NCBI GenBank assembly: GCA_016783965.1
Contig: JADHVO010000005.1
Coordinates: forward strand, 310,001-374,000
Length of the DNA: 64,000 bases
DNA from: Alphaproteobacteria bacterium
GTDB taxonomy: Bacteria > Pseudomonadota > Alphaproteobacteria > Micropepsales > Micropepsaceae
Reading direction: 5' to 3'
Shown here: positions 27,466 to 61,935 of the stretch, piece by piece
Numbering within the stretch: the stretch's first letter is position 1
Layout of the letters: the number at the start of each line of letters is the position of its first letter
Notes under the pieces: model-generated
What the model was told of the DNA's origin: nothing
The model's database searches: none
The model's input: only the letters and a program-made list of their open reading frames with translations
Program-made: the position numbers and the translations under genes

Positions 27466-27666
27466 GATCGTTGGCCCTCGTAAAGCTTCTTCGATTGTCG
27501 TGTGCTTGGAATTGAAAACCGAACAGCCCCGTGCCGTGTTGAGAAATGTCGGGTCGCGTTTAGCCAGCCAAAAAAAGAATCGTCAAATAAAATTTTCAGA
27601 ATCGTGACGCAGTGTCATTTGACACCGTGAAAACCACAGGGAAAAGCTGGATCGTCCGTGTAAAGA

Positions 27667-30342
27667 TTAATCTGAATCCGCCGCTTTTGCCAGATTCGCC
27701 TGCGCCGCCGCGAGCCGCGCGACGGGGACTCGGAAGGGCGAGCACGACACGTAGTCGAGTCCCGCGCCGTGGCAGAAGCGGATCGAATCCGGATCGCCGC
27801 CATGCTCGCCGCAGATGCCGAGCTTGAGATTTGGGCGCGTCTGGCGTCCGCGTTCGGCGGCAATGCGCACCAGTTCGCCGACTCCGTCCACGTCGATGGT
27901 CACGAACGGATCGCGCTGGATCACACCCTTGTTGAGATAGTCGGTCAGGAAGCCGCCAGCATCGTCACGTGAAATGCCGATGGTGGTCTGCGTGAGATCG
28001 TTGGTGCCGAAGGAGAAGAATTCCGCCGTTTGCGCGATCTGGCGGGCCTGCAGCGCCGCGCGCGGCAGCTCGATCATCGTGCCGATCAGGAAGCCGGGCA
28101 CCCTGCCCCGTTCCCGCTTGACGGCTTCCGCCACCGCGTCGATGCGCTCGCGCATGCGGTCCAGCTCGGCTTTGAAGCCCACCAGCGGGATCATGATCTC
28201 CAGCTGCACCGGCTTGCCGCCGGCGGCTTCCACGTTCAGCGCCGCCTCCAGGATGGCACGCGCCTGCATCTCGTAGATTTCGGGATAGGTGATGCCCAGC
28301 CGCACGCCGCGGTGTCCCAGCATGGGATTGGCCTCGTGCAGCGCGATCGCCCGCATGCGCAGCTTGCCGGGATCGGTACCGGCCGCCTTGGCCACCTCCA
28401 GGATCTCGTCCTCGTCCTGCGGCAGGAATTCGTGCAGCGGCGGATCGAGCAGGCGGATTGTGACCGGAAGCCCCTCCATCACCTTGAAGATCTTCTCGAA
28501 ATCGCCGCGCTGCATCGGCAGGAGCTTCGCGAGGGCGGCGCGGCGTTCGCTCTCCGCGTCCGCAAGAATCATCTGGCGCACCGCAATGATGCGGTGTTCG
28601 TCGAAGAACATATGCTCGGTACGGCACAGGCCGATGCCTTCGGCGCCGAACTTGCGCGCCGTCGCCGCGTCCTCCGGCGTGTCGGCGTTGGTGCGTACCT
28701 TGAGCGTGCGGATCGAATCCGCCCATCCCATCAGCACGCCGAAATCGCCCGTCAGCTCCGGCTGGCGCAGCGCGACCCTGCCCTTGAACACCGAGCCCGT
28801 GGCGCCGTCGATGGTGATGATGTCGCCGCGCCTGATGACGTGCCTGCCCGCTGACATCTCACCCTTGGCAACATCGATCTTGATCATGCCGGCGCCCGAC
28901 ACGCACGGCCGCCCCATGCCGCGCGCCACCACCGCGGCATGCGAGGTCATGCCGCCCCGCGCGGTGAGAATCCCGCGCGCCGCGTGCATGCCATGGATGT
29001 CTTCCGGACTGGTCTCCGTTCGCACCAGGATGACGTCGACGTTGTCGGCAGCCCGCTTCTCGGCCTCTTCCGCCGTGAACGCCACCTCGCCGGTGGCCGC
29101 ACCCGGCGATGCCGCCAGGCCCGCCGCTATCTGCTCCTTCGGCGCATTCGGATCGAGCGTCGGATGCAGCAGCTGGTCCAGCGCCGCCGGATCGACGCGT
29201 CCGACCGCCGTCTTCTTGTCGATCAGCCCCTCGCGCTCCATGTCCACGGCGGCCTTCAACGCCGCTTCCGCAGTGCGTTTGCCGCTACGCGTCTGAAGCA
29301 TGAAGAGCTTGCCTTCCTGCACCGTGAACTCCAGGTCCTGCATGTCGCGGTAATGCGCTTCCAGCCGGTCGCAGATCGCCTTCAGTTCGGCGAACGCCTT
29401 GGGCATCGCCTCTTCCATCGACGGCTTCTTGGCGCCCTGCCTCTCGCGCACGATTTTGCTGATCGACTGCGGCGTGCGGATGCCAGCCACCACGTCCTCG
29501 CCCTGCGCGTTGATCAGGAACTCGCCGTAGAGGATTTTCTCGCCGGTCGAGGGATCGCGCGTGAACGCCACGCCGGTGGCACTCGTCTCGCCGCGATTGC
29601 CGAACACCATCGCCTGCACGGTCACCGCCGTGCCCCACTCCTCCGGGATGTTGTGCAGCTTGCGATAGGTGTTGGCGCGCGGCGAACGCCACGACCCGAA
29701 CACCGCGCCGATCGCGCCCCACAGCTGCTCGTGCACGTCCTCGGGGAACGGCTTGCCCAGCTCCTTCTGTACCCGCTCCTTGAACAGGCCGGCGATCCGC
29801 TTCAGGTCCTCGGCGCTCAGCTCGGTATCGAGGTCGTAGCCCTTGTCTTCCTTCTCGCTGTCCAGGATTTCCTCGAACAGGGCGTGATCGACGCCCAGCA
29901 CGACATCCGAATACATCTGGATGAAGCGGCGATAGCTGTCATAGGCGAACCGCGCGTCGCCGGTGAGCTTCGCCAGCCCCTCGGTCGTCGCGGCGTTCAG
30001 GCCCAGGTTCAGCACCGTGTCCATCATGCCCGGCATCGACACCCGCGCGCCCGAGCGCACCGACACCAGCAGCGGCCGCGTGGCATCGCCCAGCGTGCCG
30101 CCGGCCTGTGTGCCCACCTTGGCCAGGGCCGCGTCGACCTCGGCCTTCAGCGTGTCGGGATAGGTCTCGCCATGGGCGTAGAACCAGGTGCACACCTCGG
30201 TCGTGATCGAAAACCCCGGAGGCACTGGCAAGCCCAGATTGCTCATCTCGGCCAGGTTGGCCCCCTTGCCGCCGAGCAGGTTTCGCATCCCCGCTTCGCC
30301 CTCGGCCTTGCCGTCGCCGAACGAATACACCCACTTGGTCAT
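27667..30342 (-). CDS. ppdK: Pyruvate, phosphate dikinase
   Basis: MTKWVYSFGDGKAEGEAGMRNLLGGKGANLAEMSNLGLPVPPGFSITTEVC; RGGMTSHAAVVARGMGRPCVSG; GICGEHGGDPDSIRFCHGAGLDYVSCSPFRVPVARLAAAQA. Confidence 0.97.
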   Translation of the reverse strand: MTKWVYSFGDGKAEGEAGMRNLLGGKGANLAEMSNLGLPVPPGFSITTEVCTWFYAHGETYPDTLKAEVDAALAKVGTQAGGTLGDATRPLLVSVRSGARVSMPGMMDTVLNLGLNAATTEGLAKLTGDARFAYDSYRRFIQMYSDVVLGVDHALFEEILDSEKEDKGYDLDTELSAEDLKRIAGLFKERVQKELGKPFPEDVHEQLWGAIGAVFGSWRSPRANTYRKLHNIPEEWGTAVTVQAMVFGNRGETSATGVAFTRDPSTGEKILYGEFLINAQGEDVVAGIRTPQSISKIVRERQGAKKPSMEEAMPKAFAELKAICDRLEAHYRDMQDLEFTVQEGKLFMLQTRSGKRTAEAALKAAVDMEREGLIDKKTAVGRVDPAALDQLLHPTLDPNAPKEQIAAGLAASPGAATGEVAFTAEEAEKRAADNVDVILVRTETSPEDIHGMHAARGILTARGGMTSHAAVVARGMGRPCVSGAGMIKIDVAKGEMSAGRHVIRRGDIITIDGATGSVFKGRVALRQPELTGDFGVLMGWADSIRTLKVRTNADTPEDAATARKFGAEGIGLCRTEHMFFDEHRIIAVRQMILADAESERRAALAKLLPMQRGDFEKIFKVMEGLPVTIRLLDPPLHEFLPQDEDEILEVAKAAGTDPGKLRMRAIALHEANPMLGHRGVRLGITYPEIYEMQARAILEAALNVEAAGGKPVQLEIMIPLVGFKAELDRMRERIDAVAEAVKRERGRVPGFLIGTMIELPRAALQARQIAQTAEFFSFGTNDLTQTTIGISRDDAGGFLTDYLNKGVIQRDPFVTIDVDGVGELVRIAAERGRQTRPNLKLGICGEHGGDPDSIRFCHGAGLDYVSCSPFRVPVARLAAAQANLAKAADSD

Positions 30343-59774: not shown

Positions 59775-60431
59775 ATGCCGCATTACATCTACGAATCGCG
59801 CGTGCTGAAGAGGATCGCCGCCGGCGGTCTGGTCGCCGGCGTGGATGAAGCCGGGCGCGGCCCGCTCGCCGGTCCGGTCGTCGCCGCCGCGGTCATCCTG
59901 CAAAAAGGAAAGATCCCCAAGGGCCTCAACGACTCGAAGCAGCTCGACGCCGAAACGCGCGAGGAACTTTTCTCTGCCATCATGTTCAACGCCGTCGCGG
60001 TCGGCGTCGGCGAGGCCACGGTCGACGAGATCGACCTCATCAACATACGCCAGGCGACGCATCAGGCGATGGCGCGCGCCGTCCGCGCCCTGCGCTTTCA
60101 GCCGGCCTTCGCGCTCGTGGACGGCAACGACGCGCCCGCATTGCCCTGCCCATGCGACACCATCATCGACGGTGACGCCAAGTCGGTCTCCATCGCAGCC
60201 GCCTCGATCATCGCCAAGGTCACGCGCGACCGCCAAATGGCCGCGCTGCACCAGGTCCATCCGCACTATGGCTGGCTGACCAACAAGGGCTACGGCACGC
60301 CCGAACACCTGACCGCACTTAACGAGCACGGGCCGTGCGCACATCACCGCCGCAGCTTCGCGCCGGTGCACCACCTTCTCTACGGCGATAGCGAGCCGGC
60401 CACAGCACTGGTCGAAGCTGCCGCCGAATAA
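59775..60431 (+). CDS. rnhB: Ribonuclease HII
   Basis: GVDEAGRGPLAGPVVAAAVIL, DSKQLDAETREELF, ALVDGNDAP, KSVSIAAASIIAKVTRDRQM. Confidence 0.97.
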   Translation: MPHYIYESRVLKRIAAGGLVAGVDEAGRGPLAGPVVAAAVILQKGKIPKGLNDSKQLDAETREELFSAIMFNAVAVGVGEATVDEIDLINIRQATHQAMARAVRALRFQPAFALVDGNDAPALPCPCDTIIDGDAKSVSIAAASIIAKVTRDRQMAALHQVHPHYGWLTNKGYGTPEHLTALNEHGPCAHHRRSFAPVHHLLYGDSEPATALVEAAAE

Positions 60432-60444
60432 TCCTTCACGCGCG

Positions 60445-60582
60445 TTATCCACACCTCCGTGGCCGCGGAGCACGAGTCGTGTTCGCTACATCTGGTGGCA
60501 GTGAATCATGGGGACTCAATTAGGAGTCTAGGTTAACACCCTGATTCAAAACGGACTCTTGACGGCGAGTCGCCGGCGAATC
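60445..60582 (+). promoter_or_regulatory. ccrM upstream region: DnaA box plus cluster of GANTC sites
   Basis: TTATCCACA at 60445-60453; GANTC at 60474, 60503, 60513, 60524, 60543, 60554, 60567, 60578. Confidence 0.75.
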
Positions 60583-60605
60583 ACTGTGCATCCATCTGTT
60601 GATAA

Positions 60606-61935
<1,330 letters not shown>

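Follow-up and report, generated by a model that had tools for sequence, protein, structure and literature searches.

The region considered here carries a methyltransferase gene and the short intergenic stretch that precedes it, and it was analysed within a window, that is, the whole stretch of 64,000 nucleotides. The product of the gene contains the PF01555 and RAMA domains and matches the NCBIfam CcrM model (E=1e-192, 639 bits, under the curated cut-off of 830); among solved structures, that of Caulobacter CcrM (6PBD, E=8e-162) matches best. Between this gene and its upstream neighbour, rnhB, the following features are found, with the offsets of the GANTC sites counted from the −35 element:

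59775–60431, plus strand: rnhB, ribonuclease HII, the upstream neighbour
60445–60453, plus strand: perfect DnaA box TTATCCACA, position not conserved
60474–60478: GANTC, offset −85; the offset is not conserved and the site lies outside the conserved set
60503–60507: GANTC; together with the site at 60513 it fits the GAATC-N5-GACTCAA pair of the genus by sequence context
60513–60517: GANTC, offset −46; second site of pair 1 by sequence context
60524–60528: GANTC, offset −35; an additional site within an insertion (by alignment) that several relatives share
60543–60547: GANTC, offset −16; pair 2
60554–60558: GANTC, offset −5; pair 2, directly abutting the −35 element
60559–60564, plus strand: −35 element TTGACG, very probable, the conserved anchor
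60567–60571: GANTC, offset +8, in the −35/−10 spacer; CGAGTCG, which fits YGAKTCK
60578–60582: GANTC, offset +19; CGAATCA (TGATTCG on the other strand), which fits YGAKTCK; its last C is base 1 of the −10
60582–60587, plus strand: probable −10 element CACTGT, spaced 17 bp from the −35 and with little resemblance to TATAAT
60597–60605, minus strand: DnaA-box-like TGTTGATAA with one mismatch, between the −10 and the ccrM start codon
60621–61697, plus strand: ccrM, GANTC DNA adenine methyltransferase; conserved ATG at 60621, with the open reading frame opening at GTG 60612

The eight GANTC starts given in an earlier, sequence-only reading of this DNA agree exactly with the sequence. In dinucleotide shuffles of the intergenic interval 60432–60611, a mean of 1.05 and a maximum of 6 GANTC were obtained, and eight or more occurred in none of 20,000 shuffles; the estimate of 0.35 sites in 109 bp made in that reading is therefore somewhat low, while its conclusion that the density is not due to chance holds. 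The 23 other pentamers that share its composition occur at most twice in this interval. In the 64-kb window as a whole, 98 GANTC were observed versus 298 expected from shuffles, a roughly 3-fold depletion; outside the array the motif is thus avoided. Genome-wide density was assessed by pattern searches for three GANTC with gaps of at most 30 bp, requiring the sites to be chained. The ccrM promoter proved to be the longest and densest chain found in the genome, followed by a cluster of 5 sites in 104 bp, so that the array stands out as exceptional. Likewise, in an 800-kb sample from two congeners, the sole 110-bp stretch with more than 5 GANTC is a ccrM promoter. The second-densest cluster found in the genome (C14:21475–21578) lies beside a long open reading frame. 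Within the window, eight GANTC are also spread over about 310 bp (27577–27884) where a pyruvate phosphate dikinase-like gene ends and in the sequence immediately after it.

The GANTC positions are locked to TTGACG, and the earlier suggestion that this hexamer at 60559 serves as a −35 element is thus very probably right. The probable −10 hexamer, 17 bp downstream of it, reads CANNNT across the genus, and because of its weakness a scan of the promoter for consensus sigma70 elements returned no match. A weak −10 is what would be expected of an activator-dependent promoter.

The ccrM upstream regions were collected from named contigs and other relatives, and 49 unique promoters of the genus were analysed. 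Most of them hold 6–8 GANTC within 200 bp, and the interval from −70 to +30 usually has 6 or 7. When the promoters are anchored on TTGAC, the sites fall at −44/−43, −36 to −32, −16 to −14, −5, +8 to +10, and +19. A site in the −17 to −13 class and the −5 site are each found in 47/49 promoters, the +8 to +10 site in 48/49, and the +19 site, which shares its last base with the −10, in all 49. The spacer core formed by the +8 and +19 sites is present in 48/49; shuffle rates for this set and the loci outside the genus are 0.0003–0.0006. The expectation that the array upstream of ccrM would be conserved in relatives is thus borne out by offsets fixed relative to the −35 across the genus, with −5 and +19 as the nearly invariant positions and a total site number that varies. 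The array is a real and conserved ccrM promoter and very probably functional.

The sites are arranged in three pairs with 9–11 bp (occasionally 8) within a pair, 18–21 bp between pairs 1 and 2, and 13–15 bp between pairs 2 and 3. The near-helical spacing described in the sequence-only reading is therefore correct within pairs, which span about one turn, but does not extend to the array, as the pairs are not in mutual helical phase. In 800 kb of congener DNA no enrichment of one-turn GANTC spacing was seen (9–11 bp in 6 of 1394 intervals). The first spacer site shifts from +8 to +10, and A, C, G, and T are all seen at its N base, yet it is GANTC throughout. Since the site moves and varies at N while remaining GANTC, the methylation target itself appears to be kept, and this drift is the best evidence for such selection that the alignments offer. 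By comparison, the full string GACTCTTGAC is conserved at −5 in 47/49 promoters and TTGATTC is nearly fixed at −15; since the surrounding strings are conserved too, these two sites alone are no proof of selection for methylation. The 3′ end of rnhB spans the first GANTC pair in many congeners. A conserved dyad, ACATCTTGTG, which lies 5′ of the array, was considered and set aside, being mostly rnhB coding sequence (HNILY); it remains in some genomes whose rnhB ends earlier.

Conservation extends beyond the genus. In a first set of 69 non-genus loci from named contigs, mostly Rhodobacteraceae, GANTC is found at −15 (54 loci), +8 (61), and +19 (57); the −17 to −13 class is present in 54 of the 57 anchored promoters, and the +8/+19 core in 57/69 loci versus a shuffle rate of 0.0003. 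Rhodobacteraceae promoters have 3 GANTC between −70 and +30. Among further alphaproteobacterial families sampled, the core was found in 31/74, with a GANTC count that varies widely both between and within families. The f60 loci, which are nearest to Caulobacter (73–76% identity to its CcrM), are without the spacer core, in line with PMC7987155, where ccrM is no longer under GcrA control in Caulobacterales.

GcrA is the most likely reader of these marks. It binds to sigma2 and promotes open-complex formation, with a preference for m6A promoters (PMC7403470, PMC3667746), and in Caulobacter, promoters with a GANTC between −10 and −35 are switched on within a particular interval of the cell cycle (PMC4287350). 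In PMC7987155, ccrM is computed to be a core GcrA target that was lost in Caulobacterales. A full gcrA gene with an intact DNA-binding domain is present in the same genome as the ccrM studied here. A second GcrA homologue (C7:465469–465877) has halves that match in different reading frames, and is either a decayed copy or the result of a sequencing error. In the genus, the +19 site reads CGAATCA in 46/49 promoters and CGACTCA in 3/49, so that the GcrA-type context YGAKTCK is found on one strand in 49/49, while the fit at the four upstream conserved positions is 0 to 15% and almost never occurs at −44, −15, or −5. The +19 sequences of Rhodobacteraceae, TGACTCA and TGAATCA, all fall outside YGAKTCK, and no extended motif was favoured in Brevundimonas. 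Furthermore, PF07750 (GcrA) was not detected in 15/74 non-genus families, where a divergent GcrA may have escaped detection, and the core is present in 6/15 families without and 25/59 with detected GcrA (Fisher p=1), which amounts to no association. In one of these six core-bearing families without detected GcrA, a single-contig genome (G123) has a clear core and no convincing GcrA match. The core in these six families and the unfitting +19 site of Rhodobacteraceae weaken the view that GcrA is the only reader.

In the genus, a second TTGAC promoter with a spacer GANTC pair precedes a septum gene that resembles DivIC/FtsB and lies between eno and pdhA (C7:30423–30449, minus strand). It is conserved in 12/12 congener loci examined, most of which have a third GANTC just past the start codon, and in the genome of the window both spacer sites match the GcrA context by inspection.

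On these grounds, we propose that the ccrM promoter may sense methylation through sigma70 and GcrA, with the CcrM mark feeding back on ccrM, a model to which we give an even chance of being right. The methylation state of the GANTC sites would set the output of the promoter. RNA polymerase with sigma70 would bind TTGACG (60559) and the weak −10 (60582), between which lie two spacer GANTC, the second abutting the −10. Since the GcrA context is present at each of them in this genome, sigma70-bound GcrA most likely reads the N6-methyl-adenines of these sites and would aid promoter opening. The upstream sites, both the one abutting the −35 and those further up, would have arisen by expansion in this lineage and would probably adjust occupancy. 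Replication would leave all sites hemimethylated and CcrM would restore them, closing a feedback loop on its own gene. The sites, their fixed and conserved positions, the GcrA-type context, and gcrA itself are observed, whereas binding by GcrA, dependence on methylation, and the direction in which the feedback acts are inferred. In a broader form, methylation autoregulation of ccrM, whether by activation or by repression, is plausible.

The main rival to control by sigma70 and GcrA is direct autorepression, in which N6-methyl-adenines beside the −35 and −10 would weaken polymerase binding or melting and replication would briefly reopen the promoter, with no need for GcrA. As the core is not associated with GcrA from family to family, a direct action of methylation on the polymerase has to be taken seriously, and the persistence of the core in the six families mentioned above is in its favour, as are the sites that abut both hexamers at the fixed positions −5 and +19. 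The Caulobacter ccrM promoter has two GANTC (PMC10073500) and was modelled by Li et al. as transcribed from hemimethylated DNA only (PMC2217572), which points to repression by full methylation. However, direct repression would not need the GcrA context seen at +19 in every genus promoter, and the poor −10 is what an activated promoter would be expected to have, so that we regard this explanation as possible but somewhat unlikely. A related scenario, which we consider unlikely, is that of an ancient self-contained switch in which methyl groups beside the −35 and −10 act directly, GcrA was recruited later as a reader in some lineages, and the genus amplified the array to at least six sites. Multi-site occupancy, in which hemimethylated sites would hold CcrM or a SeqA-like protein and the promoter would stay closed or shielded until full methylation, could draw on the six to nine paired sites with roughly one-turn spacing and on the ability of DNA-binding proteins to shield GANTC from CcrM (PMC5172544). 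It is improbable given that the pairs are out of phase with each other and that site number differs widely from family to family and also inside families, whereas the genus keeps two positions almost without exception. The same applies to the methylation-state counter put forward in the sequence-only reading: nothing beyond the number of sites speaks for it, and this number varies (mostly 6–7 in the genus, 3 in Rhodobacteraceae) while −5 and +19 hardly change.

Two further explanations dispense with methylation or replace the activator. The GANTC sites might arise incidentally within conserved sites for a different factor (e.g., GATTC or GACTC boxes), methylation being irrelevant, and the conserved strings around −5 and −15 would fit this; it is nevertheless very improbable, as the drifting +8 to +10 site keeps GANTC despite up to 2 bp of movement and variation at N, and the controlled gene encodes the GANTC methylase itself. 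The promoter might also be activated by CtrA, which activates ccrM in Caulobacter and both binds and activates ccrM in Sinorhizobium meliloti (PMC4433202). A TAAC/TAAG string does occur between −34 and −14 in 31/36 genus promoters, but a full TTAA-N6/7-TTAA box was found in 0/36, and among the Caulobacteraceae-like f60 loci a full or near-full CtrA box is present in 2 of the 3 examined, where the GANTC spacer core is missing. Hence, activation by CtrA has only a very low probability here.

Among known systems, the sigma70 promoters controlled by GcrA and CcrM in Caulobacter (mipZ, ctrA P1, podJ; PMC3667746, PMC7403470) come closest to the preferred model of a methylation-sensing sigma70/GcrA promoter. 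They share with the present locus GANTC near the −35 and −10 of a sigma70-type promoter, a genome encoding both gcrA and ccrM, and the YGAKTCK context (here at +19). They differ in that here two spacer GANTC at fixed offsets are joined by at least four upstream sites, on the methylase gene itself. The Caulobacter crescentus ccrM promoter (PMC10073500, PMC2217572) drives the same gene and has promoter GANTC and a presumed methylation feedback; it is CtrA-activated with 2 GANTC, whereas the promoter described here has no full CtrA box, 6–9 sites, and a TTGAC-anchored spacer pair. With the CtrA-controlled ccrM promoter of S. meliloti (PMC4433202), cell-cycle control of the same gene is shared, while the activator and its binding site differ. 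The prediction of ccrM as a class-wide core GcrA target (PMC7987155) concerns the same gene and the same proposed regulator; as far as its available text goes, motif number and quality were scored without positions, and neither the −35-locked architecture nor the genus expansion or the families without detected GcrA are described. A survey from 2010 listed predicted GANTC close to cell-cycle genes without concluding on control (PMC2877005), and Caulobacter ccrM was described as “most probably” affected by methylation (PMC3973325). Control of ccrM by GANTC and GcrA has thus already been proposed, and the −35-locked architecture appears to be a new variant of it. In a literature search that covered mostly freely readable papers and did not extend to the primary studies of GcrA and of ccrM transcription in Caulobacter, no report was found of the −35-locked spacer pair, of a +19 site sharing a −10 base, or of an expansion at the level of the genus.

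Most of what is known about how CcrM is restricted to a brief period of the cell cycle comes from Caulobacter; the ccrM promoter there, driven by CtrA, is atypical judging by the family survey and PMC7987155. A TTGAC promoter with spacer GANTC at fixed offsets is found in about two-fifths of the other families sampled and could be a more general element of ccrM control. Its conserved layout and recurring core suggest that the product of CcrM activity directly controls its own gene. A few mutations in the ccrM promoter would directly test the sign and the reader of this feedback. In addition, families in which GcrA is not detectable could serve as a natural experiment on a direct methylation effect on RNA polymerase.

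The sequence-only reading also pointed to the DnaA box at 60445. The sequence is indeed present; as it has no conserved position in the genus promoters, its role as a component of the system is not supported. A DnaA-like box with at most one mismatch is found at +36 to +39 in 33/49 genus promoters (shuffle rate 1%), as at 60597 in the window, and DnaA might act there near the transcription start. An explanation by replication timing was considered from the chromosomal position and set aside: ccrM lies 0.2–0.5 Mb from dnaA and far from parB, at 92–97% of the half-chromosome in three single-contig genomes. GC skew, sampled in two of these genomes, was too noisy for origin placement. In G047, G028, and G054, dnaA and the main parB are nearly opposite each other on the chromosome, with ccrM nearer to dnaA.
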